From Mycoemilia scoparia (lineage: Eukaryota > Kickxellomycota > Kickxellomycetes > Kickxellales > Kickxellaceae), in the NCBI GenBank assembly GCA_027575805.1, contig JANBPU010000029.1, forward strand, positions 62,001 through 126,000: DNA of 64,000 nucleotides, written 5' to 3'. How positions within the stretch are numbered: the first letter of the stretch is position 1; every line of letters starts with the position of its first letter. The notes under the pieces are model-generated. The model had not been told where the DNA came from and did not search any database. It was given only the letters and a program-made list of their open reading frames with translations. Positions 23,582-33,549 of the stretch are shown here, piece after piece. The position numbers and the translations under genes are program-made.

Positions 23582-26500
23582 ATGTCCAGCCAGCTCCCGC
23601 CATCCGTAAGTATGACATTTATGTCTATTGAAATCTACATATGGGCTTAGATTGTCCAACATTCAATTACCTTTCTTGCTCCTGTCTCTTTACCTTTAGC
23701 TAGAGCCATTTCAATATAAACAAACACACTAAAACCCAACTTGTATTTTTCACTCTACAGGATCTGGATGCGGCCATTCAGGACACCCGTCGTAAATTGT
23801 TTAATGAAGAAAAGATTCTCAATGCCACCAAGGTTATGCGCACCAGCCACACCAACCGCAATGCTATTGCCGAGCTTGAGTCCTCTGTCGTGGAGTCCCA
23901 GAGGCGTATCCAGTTCCTTCAGGAGCAGCTGACCAGACTCTCGATCAAAAAGCAAAACCGCGAGTCGGGAAGCTTTAATTCCCCCACAAACACTAATAAC
24001 TCTGGTGGCTCTACCCTTCATGGTTCTACTGCCAACAATACCACTGCTGGTAGCCAGAAAGTAGCCCCTGACAGTGCCAGTGGCTCGACTGCCATTGACA
24101 GTAACAGTACTAGTCGCAGGTCTCGTACAACCTCCATTTCCTACCTAGACTTGCGCAAATCGACATCTTCTTTGTCTACTCAGAAGGTTGCTTTGAAGCT
24201 GCAAGAGATTACCTACAAGCTCGGCGTTGAACGCAAGCTTCTTGAAGGCACAAACCGCATTTCTTCAATCTACACCAACGATTATTTGCGTGGAAACAAA
24301 AAGAAGATGGCCCAGGTCACTGCCGCATCATCTGTTATTGGGGAAACCAAGGAAAAGATTTTGCTTCTTGAGCGTGCTTATAAAAAGTACCATGGGCTGT
24401 GTATCGACTATATTGATGAGGATGACGAGACCGAGAACGAAGGTGTCTCTCCCTATCAGCTTGAGCCAGGTCTTCGACGCCTGATGTCTGGTAAATTGCA
24501 GCTAAGGATCATTGCTGGCCGCTATCTATACCGCGTCCAGAATTCCAGAGGTGGTCGCTACATGGGCAGCTACGTCAAGATCAAGATCGATGGCGTGGTC
24601 AAGGCCACCACCAGACTCTCGTTAAACGGAGAATGGAACGAGTTCTTTGAATTTGATGTTCATAAGGCATCTGAAGTCGAGATGAATATATACGATCGCC
24701 ACGACCGTGAGACTCTGTTGGGTATGACATGGATCAAGCTTTGTGACTTGCATGATGATATTCGCAAGCAGCAGGCCGCCCAGGAATCGGCTGATGGGTG
24801 GGCTCCGGCTGACCACATCCAAAAGGGAGTAGCTAGCGGTGCCGCCCCTGGTGGTCGCTTGTCAATGATGTCTGTGACTTCGCCTGGCGCTGGAATGATT
24901 AGCGGTCAGGTCGGCAGTGTCATTCCTGGAGAACACGGCGTACAAAGCGGTTGGGATGTCGAACCTTCTGGCCAGCTCGAACTTTGGCTCAACTTTACCA
25001 AGGATAACACGCGTCGTCGTCAGCCCTCTCGCCTGGGCCGTAAAGCCGCTGTCAGGAAGCGCAAGGGACAGTGCACCGAAATGCTTTGCCATCATTTCTA
25101 TCCCATTCACACTTATTCGATCATGAAGTGTGCCGTCTGTGAGGAACACTTGGTCAATTCGATCGGCTTCCAGTGCGAGGACTGTCAGATGTTTATCCAT
25201 GATCGTTGTGCCTCCAAGGTTGTCACTCGCTGTCTTTTGGGCGAGTCTGATGCTGGTGGCTCGATTCCTGAGGATGCCACTGATATCCTCAAGCACAGGA
25301 TTCCCCACCGCTTCGAAGTATCGACTTCCTATGGTGCCAACTGGTGCTCGCACTGTGGTTCAATGTTGGCCATCGGTCGCAAGATCAAAAAATGCTCAGA
25401 CTGTTCGATAGTCTGTCATCAGGACTGTGCCCGCTTTATCCCCAATTTCTGTGGAATGAAGCTTATGATGGCTGCTCAGCTTTTCGAGCAGCTCAGGATC
25501 ACCAAAGGTTCGTCTCTGCCCCAACCAAAGGTTCTCAGCAAACGCGAAACCATTGCCAGGGGAGCCAAAGCCCAACAACAGCAGCAACTCCAGCAAGATA
25601 CCATGGCCCAGCTTCCTAGCATCCCCAAGGTTGATTTAATGGGGGACAACAAGCTGCCATACAGCAATCAGAGTTCTATCCAGGTTGCACCGCCCCAACA
25701 TCCCCCATATGGTGCTCCACCTACTATGCAGCAGCAAGATCGTGCAGACATGCGCGTTTCTGTTCCTGGCAGTCACAGCCCTGAGATGAGTTACTATCAG
25801 CAGCAAATGCAACAGCGTCAGCACCAAAGTGCTCCAATGCCTCATTCTCCTGGCGCAATCCCACCACAGCTTCGGTCCAATGCAAATGTCCCTGGTGGTG
25901 GAATGGCCTACGGAGTAGAGCAGCCCCATCAACAGCAGCCCCAACAGCATGGACCTGGCTATCCTCAAGCCAGCAGCAGCAGTCGTCCCGATATATCTGA
26001 TCATGAAAAGGCACAGATCCGTAATGCCATGCAGCAATCCTTCCGCCCACCACCAATAAAGAGCCAGCCTCAGCAGCTTGCTGTAGTAGGTTCACCTGGT
26101 GGTGCAGCAGCACCAGCTCCTCAGAGCAGAATTCAACCTATGGCCAGACCTGCAGTGCCAGAGAAACTGCCCAAGGTTAGCATCGATGACTTCCGATTCA
26201 TTACAGTTCTTGGCAAAGGCAACTTTGGCAAGGTCATTTTGTCCGAAGAAAAAAGAACCCGCAGTCTATACGCCATCAAGGTTCTCAAGAAGCAGTTTAT
26301 TGCCGAAAATGAGGAATTCGAGAGCACACGTTCCGAAAAACGCGTACTTTTGATTGCCAACAAGGAACGTCATCCATTCTTGATTGGACTTCACTCATGT
26401 TTCCAGAACGACACCAGATTGTTCTTTGTTATGGAATACATTTCTGGTGGTGATTTGATGATGCATATCCAAACCAACCAATTTTCTGAACAGCGTGCCA

Positions 26501-28758
26501 AGTTCTACGCAGCTGAGGTTCTATTGGCCCTTGAATACTTCCATCGCAACAACATTATCTATCGTGATCTCAAGCTTGACAATATTCTGCTGTCTGCAGA
26601 TGGCCACATCAAGATTGCTGACTATGGCTTGTGTAAGGAAAATATGGGGTACGGTCAGACCACAAACACATTCTGCTTGGAAGGAAATACCCCTATCAAC
26701 CTGTTCAATGGCTTCAGTGTTCGCATTAAGGACGCAAAGAGGCTAGATGAGCTCCAGGACCTCAAACAGAAGGAATCGTTGATCATGTCGTATAACAAGA
26801 TCAGAAACTCATTGACATCCGATGGCCTTGTTAGATGGACTGACAATGGGGTAAGACCTTGTGTTGAAATTTGTTTGGCTGATGGTCGAACAATCACTGC
26901 CACCAGCGACCACAAATTCTATACCACCAATGGGTGGAAGAAGGCTGAAGATATTGAGCTTGGTAAAGACTCGCTGGTTTTGGGACCCAAGTTCCCTACT
27001 CTTGATTTGGAACTCAATGAGACTTGGTCATTCAGCGCCAAGACATTACATTTCAGTTTGAAGACTCATGCCGAGATGTTGAGGACCCTAGCATTTACCA
27101 GAATTGTTGGCCTTGTGTTGTCCAGTATGTTTACAGAGAGCAGCTCCAATGTTGCTTCATTCGCTATGACCAACAATGTGGATGTTCGTGTTTTGAAGGA
27201 GGATGTGAGACATGTACTTGATCCTTATGGTGCATCTCCTGATTCTCTTGATAAATGCTTATCCGTAGAAGTAGAGAAGGTTGAAAATTCAGATGGCTAT
27301 GGTGGTGTATGGAAGGCAACCCTTCCAGTTGCTTTATCTCAATGCATTGAATCTGTAATTGGTGTTACTGGTAATGATGGGTCTAGCAGCGAAACTATAG
27401 CCAATATCACTATTCCATCATTTATTACAGATAAGGAGTGCCCATTACCTGTCATCAAGGCATTCCTTAGTGGTCTTGTCTCTGGAAACAGTGGAATCAC
27501 CGCAAATATTGCAACAGAGTCATCCCAACAACCCGCCACCATATCTTGGAATGAGCTATTTACAATCCCCTATCAGCAATCCCAGCCCATTGTCGAATTG
27601 CTTGAGCGTTGTGGTGTATCTGATATCAGCGTGCTTTATAAGTCCGGTGTCAGCGATTTGGCCACTATTGTTCGCAAGGAACATCTAAAAGATACTTCTG
27701 TCCTTGACAACATCTCCTTCGCTTACAATACAAAGAAGCAAATTCTTGCTGAAATATGTACCTCATACATCCGCTACGTAAACCATCAGAAGCACAATGT
27801 TGTGGAGCCTGCTTTGGTCCATTTAACTGATGTTTCAAAGCAACAATTGCAGTTACAAGACCAGTCAGCTGCCGATGATAATAGCCTGAAATCTGATGAA
27901 CTTGACGATACTGTTGAGCAGATCCTGAGAAAAGCACAATTTGTTGATCTAGGAATGGTCAACAGCTCCGATTTCAACACACAAGATTTGGCTCCCAAGA
28001 AGGACAGAATTGCAAGTGTAACCATGGCTACCACAAGTCCAAAAAGCTTCCTTGAAATTGTTGGCGGTGACTCTACTCTCAGCAGCCTGCTCAAAGCCAA
28101 CGAGACTTCTTTGTTCCCAAGCAGTCGCACTGTTACTTATGAGTTGGCTGTTACCGATCGCCGCTCAGTTGGTCATCGCAGTGTATACGATTTGGCCATG
28201 CGCACATTCCACTCCTTCATCGCCTCTGGTGTAGTCACCCACAACTGTGGTACACCCGAGTTCATGGCCCCTGAAATCATTTTGGAGAACCGATATGGCA
28301 AGGCTGTCGACTGGTGGGCATTTGGTGTGCTCATCTATGAAATGTTATTGGCCCAGAGTCCATTCCGTGGCGAAGATGAAGATGAGATCTTTGAGGCTAT
28401 TCTTGATGATGAGGTCCTCTACCCAGTTGGAATGTCAAGACACTCAGTCGAGATTTGCCAAGAGCTCTTGCAACGTATTCCCCAAAAGAGATTGGGAGCT
28501 GGCCCTGAGGATGCCGAGGAAATTAAGCGTCATCCCTTCTTTAGAGGAACTAACTGGGACGATATCCTTAACAAGAGAGTTCCTCCACCATTTATTCCGG
28601 TCATTAAGTCAAGAACTGACACTTCCAACTTTGATGCTGAATTTACTTCTGAGCCACCCAGGCTGACACCATCCAACTCTGTCCTAGACTTGCATGATCA
28701 GAACCAATTCTCTGGCTTTGACTATGTATCTCCATGGGCAGTTCAAGGCATCAAGTAA
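23582..28758 (+). CDS. pkc1: Protein kinase C (Pkc1 type) containing an intein in the kinase domain
   Basis: Exon 1 is 23582-23605 (MSSQLPPS) and exon 2 is 23761-28758; the 155 nt intron has GTAAGT and CTACAG borders and keeps the frame. The precursor is 1673 aa. In order: two HR1-like coiled segments (about 10-75 and 145-225), a C2 domain (about 252-340), two C1 zinc domains (452-500 and 524-574), a Gln/Pro-rich linker, and the kinase from residue 819. The kinase has GKGNFGKV, Lys848 in YAIKVLKK, YRDLKLDN, and the DYG variant of DFG (IADYGLCKE) typical of fungal Pkc1. An intein (980-1503) splits the activation loop before Cys1504 of CGTPEFMAPE. The tail carries a turn-motif-like RLTPSNS and an FSGFDY hydrophobic motif. 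Without the intein the protein is 1149 aa, close to yeast Pkc1 (1151). Pkc1 is the Rho1 effector heading the cell-wall-integrity MAP kinase pathway. Confidence 0.96.
26674..28245 (+). other. Intein in protein kinase C, 524 residues
   Basis: The insert is in frame and free of stops, sits between AACACATTC and TGTGGTACA of the kinase activation loop, and has no GT-AG borders. Block A starts with the nucleophile Cys1 (CLEGNTPINLFNG). Block B is GRTITATSDHKFY with the T-x-x-H signature at 26902-26913. Block F is VYDLAMRTFHSFIA (from 28183). Block G is SGVVTHN, with penultimate His and terminal Asn, followed by Cys+1. All residues needed for class 1 splicing are therefore present. Between blocks B and F lie about 400 residues, the size of a homing-endonuclease region. 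The helices RIVGLVLSSM (about 27100) and CPLPVIKAFLSGLVSGNSG (27439-27495) align by eye with LAGLIDADG blocks but lack their Asp/Glu, so the endonuclease is probably dead. Confidence 0.95.
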
Positions 28759-29295: not shown

Positions 29296-32200
29296 TTAAG
29301 GAGCATATCCATAACTCCTGCTTTTGCCGTTATTATAGCTATTATTACTACTGGTGTTGCTGTTGTTATTTGGCTTTTGTATAGGTGGCACTCGCAATGA
29401 GTTGAGTGATACCATTGACGAGTTTCTACTCTTGTTTGTTAGCTGAGATGACTGTGTTCCTATTTGGAATACTGCTGGTGGTGGTGGGAGATTAAGGAAT
29501 GGGTACTGATGGGCCTTGTTTGCCACTGTATTGCGGAGACTGGACTGGCTGCCTGAAAAGCCCTTGGACTGTGGCGTTCCACCACGACTCAATGATCTAT
29601 TTGAAAGAGCTAATGATGCTGATGATGACGATAACGTTAGTGAAGAAGAGTTGGCCATTCTGCTGATCGAGTTGGTACTGGCAATCGTTGGGATGATGAG
29701 AGGAGTCATATAACCGAGCTTTTCTAGAGTATCTGCCGCATGTGACATTCTTTTAGTATCCTCAAGCGTGTGGGCCGATGAGGATGTGATGGCTGCCTGA
29801 AGTTGAGACACCTGACCAATGCCAGGCGTGAATAAAACGCTATTTTCAGAGCTGGTGTGGCTGTGCGTTTCAGATCTCTTACTGGTGCTGATAACACTCC
29901 TGTGGCTACTAACCAAGCTTCCAAAACTGCTCGTCCCTCCAAGGGTTTGTGACTTGTTGAGCATAGATATCATCGAGTTGTGGTGGAACTCATTTCCTAG
30001 GGACAGGTGTCGCAGGTAAAGATTGTCGTAGATGCTCAATGCAACCTTTCTGAGATGCGGAGTCTCGTTGAGGATCTTTTTGGTCTTTTCTCTCTTTTCT
30101 GCTTCAAACTCGCACCAGTGTTTTCTGATGATCATGTTCTGATCAAATTCGCCCTCTCCATCACCGTGGCCCGTATCTTTACCCTCACCAGTAACCTTAC
30201 GGGTCTCGCCCCATGAGAAATCATCAAAGTGCCAGTATGCATAAGCAGGGAGGACAAAGTTCCAAATAGGAAGCGCAAAGAGATAGATGAACATCCATCC
30301 GACATATACCATTTTGCGTGTAGTAAGTCCGATCAATACAGCAGGGAGAAGCAGGATGCATGCCAAAAGGGCCAGAGGGAGATAAGGAACTGGTCTGGTG
30401 AATGTTGAAATGATGACGATATATATGGTGAATGAAATGGCAGCGGGCAAAGCAACAGTGCCTACCAGTTCCATGAAAATGACAAACTGCATAGACAAAC
30501 AGAAGGTACCACACAAATCTTTAACCAGAACCAATTCCATTAGATTATGTACCGTAGAGTTGATCCATCTACGTCTTTGGGATAGGAGAACCTTGAACTC
30601 ATCCGGCACAACGGTCTTACAAACAGCCGATGGAACAAACATCATTTTGCGTTTTGGGAATGTTTTGAGCATCAGTGTGGTTAGGTAACGATCTTCCCCA
30701 AGCAAGAGCAGATTCTTTTTGTGTAGCGTGTCAACAACATGCTCAGAATAAAGCTCGACAATGTTGGGGTTCGAGAGGATTGGAACCCAGTAGTTGTTGG
30801 TACCTTTAGGAGCCTTGATTCTGTACATGCAGAAGCAGCCTGGAAGACAAGTGACACCGCCAAACACCGATTCGAAAGCCTTGGCCTGGTGGTGGGAGAT
30901 GTAGTACTCGAATACTTGGATTGCACTTACCCACGAGTCTCGCTTGTTGGCAATCTTGGTTTCACCACAAAGACCCATGATCTGTGGATCTCGGACCATG
31001 GTCGCTACCATACGGGTTACCGAATCACCATAGACTTTCGTATCAGCATCAACCATCAGGCATATTTCAAAGTTATCAGGAGTGACCTTGGTTACATTCC
31101 ACATGGCGTTGAACAACTCATACTCCAGCTCAGTCATACGATCATCAAACATGACGTGCTGGAGGAATCTCATCAGTAAAACTTGGGAGTCACGCTTGCC
31201 ACGGTTACCTGGCTTCTTTTCGTTTGCCTCTTCTGGCGCACCACACTTGACAACAAGAATCATCGGGACTGGCTCGCGCTTGGTAGCCTCTGGAGAATCC
31301 TCGCTAGGGGCATAGTAGCCAGCGTAGATCTTGGCCATGTTTCTGCGCTTGGCTCCGGATGCAATGGCTACATAAGTATATGGCTGCACACGGTCGGGTG
31401 GAATAACAAAGTCCTTCATCATCGACAGACAAACATCCGGCGTGTACATGTCCTCGCCTGCACCTTTGATCAGGCCGTCGCAAATGACAAAGATGCACTT
31501 GTGCGAACCAGGGTAATCAGTGCCTGCCAACGAATCCAAAGTTGTTCGAATGCCCTCGACTCCCTCAGAATAGCACGTTACAAGCAGCAGGGTGTAAGCC
31601 AGCGGGAAGTCAAATGGGGAGTCGTCAACTGTTGTACCAGCGGCTGTTATAGGATCCTGGTGAGATTTATAGGCTTGATTTACAGTTATATTTGTTTGGT
31701 TCATATTCCCTGAGGGATATGTCATAAATTCGTTTTGAATTGCACTATCCTTGGGCAGATCCAACGTATACCTTGTGGTATCGTCGAGCTCGCTAATCCC
31801 CGCGGTATTTGGGTTGTCTTCGAAATGCTGGTTTGGATTTCTGGTCATGTACAAGGAGTTGAAGTAGCCACTTGCCACGGAGTTTGGGTTAACACCAACT
31901 CGTCCTCTCTTTGCGGGCTGATTCTCAATAACAGGTACCTCGCCAGGATTAAATTGCGAGAACCTACTCACGCTGGGGAGCCACCGGTGCTTGCGAGGGG
32001 TGACTGGAGGTGCAGCATTGTCGATATTATCATTGCTGTTATTAGCTGTGGCAGTACCATCAGGAGAGGCGGTTCTCTGTTGGTTCATATTGGCCATTCC
32101 TGGAGCAACTGTGTATTGGGGATTAAGGACTTCCCTTGCTCTTCCATCACTATAATAATCAGACCAGTCTTCTATCTTTTCTAACCGCTTTTTCCGTTCT

Positions 32201-33549
32201 TCTGGTGTTTCTGGTGTTATAAAGCCAAGATTCCGAGACATAAACCAACCGAAATAAAGGGCCATGAAAAACTTTGCAAAGACGGCGCCAAGAATAACGA
32301 CCAAAGAGACGTACAGGATAACATTTGAGATCATACAACCAAAGGAGGCAGTGTCGATATCGCCAACTTTGGTCAAGTCCCTCAAGCATTCCCCAGTGGT
32401 GGGGTTTTCCTTGGCAAAATACATGCTCATATCCTGCCCACGGTACTTTCCTCCCTTGATTTTTTTAATTATCGAAGGCAGCTTGACTTGAGGAAGTAGC
32501 CAGTCTAGCCTTGAAAGGTCGAGTACAACACCGTTATACACTATCATGTCCTTCTTTTTGTTCATGATGTCGTCCCATGAATAGTAAACCACTTTCTTGG
32601 GCTGCCTTTTAAGAGCGCTGCGTTCTTCATTGCTGTTGTGGCAAAATTCCTGGTTGTATGTATCTGAAGGGTCTACCTTGTCGCCTGGGGGTTGGCTAGA
32701 AACCATTTTGCATGGAAAGACATTAGCAACATTGCCATTATCATCAGCAAAGTTATCGGCATACCGAAGAACCTTTTTGCAATTGTCGTTTGGGTTTTGG
32801 AATAGCAGCGACAAGTCCCTGAATTCTGCATTGATGGGGGCGCCCAAGATATTTCCGTCGTCGATTTTTCCGACATCAGGGTGCTTGAACTTTGAAATGT
32901 CGTATGCATAGCCGCCTATTATGACGTTTCCCTTTTTGAGTCCGTTGAATTTTACTCGGTTTTCGGTACCGGAAAGGCCACAGAGCACTTGTTGCAAACC
33001 GAAGGTCAAGAATCCAATTGTGCCCATGATCATTACTATGATACTGACCAAGGCTATCTTTTCCCGCCATGCTGTCTGTATCTGCTTATCTGGTATCCCG
33101 CAGAGCTTCAGTAGAGGTGGTGGAGCCCAGAATGTCACTATTCTTGTATAAACAGTCCATGGGCCAGGAAGCCTATCAAGGAAGCTAGATTTCTCTTCTT
33201 TTTTTAAACCGTTCATTATTGCTTTCCTCCGCGACTTCTTGACCTCTCCTTTCATGGGAGTGTTTCGCCGTCTAAGAGCAGTTCCCTTTTGGAGTTGTTC
33301 ATTTTGTTCTATGCTGCTCATGCTTCCGTTTAGTTTCATATATGTGTAATAGTGTGGGTCACCAGGCTTGGGTATTGGCTGTCGCTCTGGCCTTGTCAAG
33401 GAACTACGTTTCCTAGATGAATCATTCGAATGCAGTCCAGTCTCGATGTCTCCATTTACATTGGTAAGGCTGTATCTCCGAGTTTGTCCGGAGTCGTTTC
33501 GTGCTAAATAGGCTTGCCTTTTTGGAATTTGATTTCTATCTTGATTCAT
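29296..33549 (-). CDS. Chitin synthase, Chs3 type (class IV)
   Basis: A single exon encodes 1417 aa. After a basic N-terminus come a first transmembrane helix (about 164-190), a cytochrome-b5-like region (about 201-400), and a second helix (about 405-436). A cytosolic linker and the GT2 catalytic core follow. Catalytic landmarks are [20 protein letters not shown] (about 832), [31 protein letters not shown] (about 949) and the QRRRW processivity motif (about 991). Several membrane helices follow, then a Ser/Asn-rich tail of about 250 residues. This is the Chs3/class IV architecture; yeast Chs3 is 1165 aa, so the tail and linker here are long. The enzyme polymerises GlcNAc from UDP-GlcNAc into chitin at the plasma membrane. 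It is convergent with pkc1, whose pathway controls chitin deposition in yeast. No intein is seen in it. Confidence 0.96.
   Translation of the reverse strand: [1417 protein letters not shown]

Follow-up and report, generated by a model that had tools for sequence, protein, structure and literature searches.

A predicted class 1 intein that has lost its homing-endonuclease acids splits the protein kinase C activation loop of Mycoemilia scoparia, whose genome carries at least 20 inteins

A survey of eukaryotic nuclear and chloroplast genomes counted 257 inteins, whose commonest nuclear hosts were Prp8, VMA1, RNA polymerase subunits, ThrRS, GLT, CHS and eIF5B (PMC5784728, Table 1). These inteins carry splicing blocks and sit at conserved sites, as does the element described here, a 524-residue intein predicted within the gene for a protein kinase C (PKC) of the fungus Mycoemilia scoparia; in contrast, none of those commonest hosts is a protein kinase, and the word kinase is absent from the main text of that survey. 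The element lies in a stretch of 64,000 nucleotides, called the window below (assembly GCA_027575805.1, contig JANBPU010000029.1, positions 62,001-126,000, forward strand). Closely comparable are the class 1 inteins of environmental RNA polymerases inserted at EMERD/C of RPB2 (P0170, P0212 and others; a slash marks the insertion point), which are 26-28% identical to the PKC intein over its length and share with it the Hint blocks A, B, F and G, Cys1, the terminal His-Asn, Cys+1 and the positions of two LAGLIDADG motifs. The PKC intein differs from them in being located in a kinase activation loop and in having lost both catalytic acids. The isoleucyl-tRNA synthetase (IleRS) intein of the same genome (406 residues) is 25-27% identical to it along the length and has the same splicing residues, but keeps the Asp of the first LAGLIDADG motif, with Asn in the second, whereas the PKC intein has lost both. 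Among viral protein models (BFVD), the intein hosts of Cedratvirus, Yasminevirus and Pandoravirus ranked first; these giant-virus inteins, hosted by RNA polymerase, threonyl-tRNA ligase and ribonucleotide reductase, resembled the modelled PKC intein in fold over its whole length (query TM-score 0.61-0.67 in the seven best rows), with 13-22% identity in the seven best alignments.

In the open-licence literature, judged mostly by titles and the starts of abstracts, we found no previous description of a protein kinase that hosts an intein, and by title no paper there was devoted to inteins of Mycoemilia or its relatives, or to a dynein intein. In the accessible text of individual sources, the word kinase was confined to one figure label and one reference in a 2019 account of seven PRP8 intein sites across eukaryotes (PMC6805012) and to an engineering example in PMC5874633; inteins were treated solely as a purification tag in PMC11481897, and in general terms only, with no mention of Mycoemilia, in PMC8778642. 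An RPB2 intein has been described in Spiromyces aspiralis (PMC1635734), and two inteins in Rhizophagus irregularis and three in Fusarium fujikuroi were named in 2018 as examples of fungal genomes with more than one (PMC5784728). The chemistry of inteins is known; a protein kinase as predicted host, and this site, had no precedent that we could find in that literature, which agrees with the new host gene and site put forward in the original prediction from the same DNA, splicing being predicted in both cases. The hosts named in that prediction were indeed nuclear intein hosts, but the list was incomplete, as inteins had already been described in RNA polymerase subunits and eIF5B (PMC5784728).

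The insert (26674-28245, forward strand; Table 1) comprises 1572 bases that translate, with zero stops and within one long frame, into 524 residues (CLEGNTP...VVTHN), flanked by TTNTF upstream and CGTPEFMAPE downstream, so that the extent first proposed for it was exact. The host gene (23582-23605 joined to 23761-28758) has a single short 5' intron, and its joined translation is letter for letter the public 1673-residue protein P0002, 'Serine/threonine kinase [Mycoemilia scoparia]'. A simple single-base model at the base composition of the insert gives a probability of about 1e-13 for 524 open codons; stops number 22 and 41 in the remaining two forward frames, and the codon usage of the insert matches that of the exteins. 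A Pfam scan revealed two HR1 domains, one C2 domain, two C1 domains, a protein kinase domain split in two and a Pkinase_C domain, which, together with the alignments described below, indicates that the host is a fungal PKC of the PKC1 type interrupted in the activation loop of its catalytic domain, as had been claimed. It was the sole Mycoemilia PKC among the best 120 of the 1418 homologues retrieved at E <= 1e-50 (8000 scored), no paralogue search of the genome having been made.

A check of the same site in homologues, proposed at the outset, was carried out on those best 120. None of the 119 others had an insert there, PF14890 was annotated only in the Mycoemilia protein, TFCGT(P/L)EF was unbroken in 119 of the 120 (the exception being Mycoemilia), and a pattern match showed the D-x-G to APE loop to be contiguous in 114. 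It reads contiguously as printed in Spiromyces (TFCGTPEFLAPQ), in two Dimargaris proteins (TFCGTLEFMAPE) and in P0106 (TFCGTPEFMSPE); the gene model of P0033 is without the stretch before the loop, yet TFCGTPEFMAPE is uninterrupted in it. The closest homologue among the matches listed, with 59% identity over 58% of the query, comes from Spiromyces aspiralis, a member of the same family as Mycoemilia (Kickxellaceae, order Kickxellales). When the exteins are joined as TNTF followed by CGTPEFMAPE, the alignment of the kinase domain with PKN2 (4crs_A) and PKC beta (8se2_A; TTKTFCGTPDYIAPE) is gap-free across the junction, just as the rejoining foreseen for them implied. A single Phe codon separates the activation-loop Thr, which we take to be the PDK1 site of AGC kinases, from the intein, and the +1 Cys of the intein is the conserved activation-loop cysteine of TFCGTP.

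These junctions also bear on the alternative that a long spliceosomal intron removes the segment, or most of it, and that the open frame is a relic. A GT-AG-like pair does exist nearby (donor at 26633, GTAAGG; acceptor ending at 28234), 1602 nt apart and in frame, but its excision would remove KENMGYGQTTNTF together with the Thr of the activation loop and place FTHN in front of CGTP, contrary to the uninterrupted TFCGT of all 119 other homologues. The borders of the insert read TTC/TGC and AAC/TGT, not GT-AG, and an intron would preserve neither Cys1, TxxH, VYD, HN and Cys+1 nor an identity of 31-39% to the splicing domains of inteins. Since the sole in-frame GT-AG-like pair would take out the activation loop, we rejected this explanation as highly improbable. 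The pair itself is relevant solely if used in RNA.

The profiles argue for an intein. The insert scored above the cut-offs of both Intein_splicing (PF14890; 46.5 bits, cut-off 35.8) and intein_Nterm (TIGR01445; 34.8 bits, cut-off 24.5), and in a six-frame search of the genome intein_Cterm (TIGR01443; cut-off 15.6 bits) gave 17.4 bits at the PKC insert. Its relatives align with it along the entire length, and residue conservation was taken from a 20-row alignment (A6) of the PKC intein and these relatives, in which V504, D506, F515, H523 and N524, as well as the residues of blocks A and B given in Table 1, were invariant in all rows. All of the splicing residues originally pointed out (Cys1, T-x-x-H, terminal His-Asn and Cys+1) are present, Cys at position 1 and at +1 being what is found in class 1, and solved inteins were the top matches when the modelled insert was compared with known structures. 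By sequence and modelled fold, the insert is a class 1 cis-splicing intein, with splicing predicted.

The endonuclease part is another matter. Where a LAGLIDADG motif would end in DG, the PKC intein reads LVLSSMF and LVSGNSG, which is not what an actively homing element has, and its homing endonuclease is predicted to be dead. The description of the intein as full-length holds for its size but not for the endonuclease, both catalytic acidic residues of which are gone. Because both LAGLIDADG acids have been lost, the element is probably fixed, vertically inherited and no longer homing.

The searched genome (21.16 Mb, 466 contigs), in which the frames met were read, holds at least 20 inteins, amounting to 8193 residues, in 9 core genes; the number is a lower bound, to which the final genome searches added no locus. 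Of the 19 outside PKC, 18 are on other contigs and one is on the contig of the window but outside it, all with exact junctions, and all 20 lie within long open frames whose flanks continue as host protein. Their first residue is Cys in 18 and Ser in 2, the C-terminus is HN in 16, GN in 3 and RN in 1, the +1 residue is Cys (10), Ser (6) or Thr (4), and the block B region shows T-x-x-H in 15 and His alone in 5. Host families were confirmed by Pfam and NCBIfam, while the finer names RPB2 (not RPA2 or RPC2) and eIF5B are our own reading. Without its ten inteins the PRP8 frame measures 2355 codons from stop to stop; the third and ninth of these inteins are close relatives (E 2e-55), and the second RPB2 intein shows a weak link to them (E 4e-5 to 7e-4). 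The RPB2 inteins are lettered a-c by position, unlike the published allele letters. Inteins 45% identical to each other occupy the same site in two FtsH-type AAA proteases, in our reading probably the m- and i-AAA proteases of mitochondria, which reflects either spread between paralogues or a very old insertion. With at least 19 other inteins in the genome, the PKC insert is a member of a genome-wide load and not an odd single insertion.

Two further weak candidates were set aside: C434:162981-163022 (17.2 bits with TIGR01443, in a frame of 81 residues) and C453:50834-51055 (L028), where LAGLIDADG_3 gave 21.5 bits across internal TGA codons. The LAGLIDADG frames of the latter, which lie beside mitochondrial-like frames, are open only if TGA is read as Trp (code 4) and are probably mitochondrial introns with an endonuclease.

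That a single assembly lies behind the sequence leaves room for an assembly chimaera or contamination at the PKC locus. The junctions, however, are residue-exact, the insert has the codon usage of the extein, the host protein is nearest, among the matches listed, to that of a fungus of the same family, and the genome has 19 further inteins with equally exact junctions, of which 18 lie on contigs other than that of the window, all of which makes such an artefact barely credible.

Within this genome the PKC intein matched the IleRS intein at E 1.7e-16 and the third RPB2 intein at E 1.2e-10. Searching the insert against proteins, as had been advised, gave 4 matches at E <= 0.001 out of 7989 scored, one of them itself, and the same search with the IleRS intein gave 277 out of 8000, described here from the best 120. 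Among the latter matches listed were RNA polymerase II subunit 2 with an intein at EMERD/C, family B DNA polymerases, aconitases, XRN and SNF2 proteins, and two environmental IleRS proteins (P0142, P0165) with inteins at another site, FD/CWFESGSM. An environmental class I myosin (P0155, 1037 residues; Myosin_head, TH1 and SH3 domains) contained an intein of the same clan and is another cytoskeletal host. A comparison set of 136 intein segments (4 from Mycoemilia), drawn from these matches and from the genome itself, was compiled after dropping those shorter than 350 residues or not starting with Cys or Ser, as well as P0125, which is the Mycoemilia IleRS protein itself. The best matches of the PKC intein among them were the RPB2 EMERD/C inteins (phmmer 1.6e-37). 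Of 45 host RPB2 proteins of these inteins, 39 showed 40-45% identity to the RPB2 extein of Mycoemilia (full range 31.5-57.3), and we read these hosts as giant-virus-like organisms or distant eukaryotes. That the PKC intein belongs to a clan with the RPB2 EMERD/C, giant-virus, IleRS and aconitase inteins is fairly clear. An environmental RPB2 intein used as DNA query had no match in viral_contigs; alignment A1 as query gave at least 32 loci, three of which (L064, L067 and L094) span query residues 1-524.

From these data, the activation loop of this PKC1-type kinase very probably contains a canonical class 1 intein that splices in cis and whose homing endonuclease is dead. Several observations weigh against this interpretation. 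The support for splicing consists of sequence and a modelled fold, and the sequence is known from one assembly, of which P0002 is no independent copy. TIGR01443 reached 13.5 bits on the insert and 14.7 on the whole protein, both below its cut-off, and in the six-frame search PF14890 split the insert into pieces of 27.9 and 17.4 bits, each likewise below. The intein model is weak in the middle, with a predicted local distance difference test (pLDDT) value under 50 for 104 of the 524 residues. In a tree of 45 rows (the 136 segments thinned to 33, with 12 restored), the PKC intein fell on a branch of length 2.5 with no firm placement; the tree was therefore rejected as a guide to origin, and we claim no source for the PKC intein. 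Finally, the PKC intein is 31-39% identical to its 19 relatives in the Hint part and 17-23% in the middle, whereas RPB2-site pairs with both Asp residues show 47-63% in the middle and 50-56% in the Hint part, but more distant pairs with both Asp also fall, from 33-52% (Hint) to 26-34% (middle). Because such live pairs drop likewise, the contrast does not by itself demonstrate that splicing is preserved during decay of the endonuclease; it was rejected as a weak sign of decay, and the case for a dead endonuclease rests on the lost residues. An alignment of the kinase-plus-intein precursor (A7) was also set aside, as the intein relatives seemed misaligned in it (17-24% identity, with the invariant columns in the kinase part).

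The dead endonuclease and the long branch mean that part of the element has decayed, and the decay might extend to splicing, leaving a degenerate intein that cleaves without ligating, or does not splice at all, and a broken PKC gene. Against this stand the full complement of splicing residues and the intact exteins, which match PKC at full length; moreover, wall integrity in model yeasts requires PKC1, an essential function. We thus regard a broken intein as very unlikely.

For the favoured splicing intein, the course of events would follow the established chemistry of class 1. The PKC gene would be transcribed and translated with the insert included, and folding of the Hint domain, made up approximately of residues 1-110 and 484-524, would bring both halves of the kinase together. 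Cys1 would then attack the Phe-Cys bond, Cys+1 would take over the N-extein, Asn524 would cyclise aided by His523, and the exteins would rejoin as TTNTF-CGTPEFMAPE. The computed mass is 186 kDa for the unspliced kinase and 57.6 kDa for the free intein. The precursor should be inactive, because its activation loop is split beside the phosphorylation site until splicing, and the need for the kinase would keep selection on splicing. At present the intein would be inherited vertically; copying within the genome or viral transfer are possible routes by which it entered PKC.

An intein that interrupts the activation loop close to the phosphorylated residue, uses the conserved Cys of the loop as Cys+1 and persists although its homing residues are lost could also have been domesticated for regulation, with conditional splicing (redox, metal, stress) gating PKC activation. 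Such splicing has been reported for other inteins (PMC6805012). PKC would then be made as a dead precursor, activatable only after splicing, and redox, metal or stress could set the amount of kinase; with at least 20 inteins in 9 core genes, ten of them in PRP8, Mycoemilia scoparia would be a natural example of a fungus in which much of the supply of core proteins hinges on protein splicing. This post-translational gate is putative, selfish reasons also explain the preference of inteins for conserved active sites (PMC5784728), and the ten PRP8 inteins of the same genome favour a load over a fine-tuned device; we consider it unlikely.

Tail to tail with the PKC gene lies a chitin synthase (Chitin_synth_2; window 29296-33549, reverse strand), a family known to host inteins. 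The scans reported no intein profile hit for its long frame.

Table 1. Features of the PKC gene and its intein (positions in the window) and the other inteins of the genome (C and L numbers are our handles for contigs and loci).
Feature	Position	Strand	Basis or remark
PKC exon 1 (MSSQLPPS)	23582..23605	+	GTAAGT donor at 23606, ACAG acceptor ending 23760; the joined exons encode P0002 exactly
PKC exon 2, N-extein: HR1, C2, two C1, kinase to activation-loop TNTF	23761..26673	+	Pfam, reading frame
Activation-loop Thr codon (second T of TNTF)	26668..26670	+	Gap-free alignment to TTKTFCGTPDYIAPE, PKC beta 8se2_A
Predicted intein, 524 residues, Cys1 to Asn524	26674..28245	+	Profiles, whole-length relatives, fold matches
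Cys1 codon (block A)	26674..26676	+	Cys1 invariant in 20/20 rows
Block B TSDH (Thr77, His80)	26902..26913	+	T77, H80 invariant in 20/20 rows
Degenerate LAGLIDADG motif 1 TLAFTRIVGLVLSSMFTES	27085..27141	+	Catalytic Asp lost; Asp in 18/19 relatives
Degenerate LAGLIDADG motif 2 CPLPVIKAFLSGLVSGNSGITAN	27439..27507	+	Catalytic Asp replaced; Asp in 17/19 relatives
Blocks F and G VYDLAMRTFHSFIASGVVTHN (Asp506, His523, Asn524)	28183..28245	+	Alignment A6
C-extein: Cys+1, CGTPEFMAPE, kinase C-lobe, Pkinase_C, stop	28246..28758	+	Frame, Pfam
PRP8, ten inteins (244-463 residues)	C412:173828-193321 (L036-L038)	-	One 6498-codon frame
RPB2, three inteins (446, 325, 440 residues)	L005:3528-9998, contig C1	-	Two just 32 residues apart
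IleRS intein, FGWD/CHGLPVE	C23:12165-13382 (L004:5166-6383)	+	406 residues
FtsH-type protease intein, VGVGA/S	C90:134108-135169 (L022:3609-4670)	+	Ser1
FtsH-type protease intein, VGVGA/S	C378:9936-11033 (L023:4437-5534)	-	Ser1
Dynein heavy chain intein, directly after P-loop lysine, GPAGTGK of hydrolytic AAA site	C22:11868-12968 (L027)	-	
VMA1 intein, VYVG/CGERGNEM	C90:24799-26028 (L062:2800-4029)	-	
eIF5B intein, after P-loop lysine, HVDTGK/TKLLD	C212:17045-18280 (L063:4046-5281)	-	Contig of the window, upstream of it

If these predictions are true, the PKC intein splits the on-switch of a kinase and offers a natural test of whether an intein can control signalling. The genome load, at least 20 inteins in 9 genes with ten in PRP8, may outweigh the PKC finding in importance, since it makes the spread of inteins within a eukaryotic genome, and its cost, directly testable.
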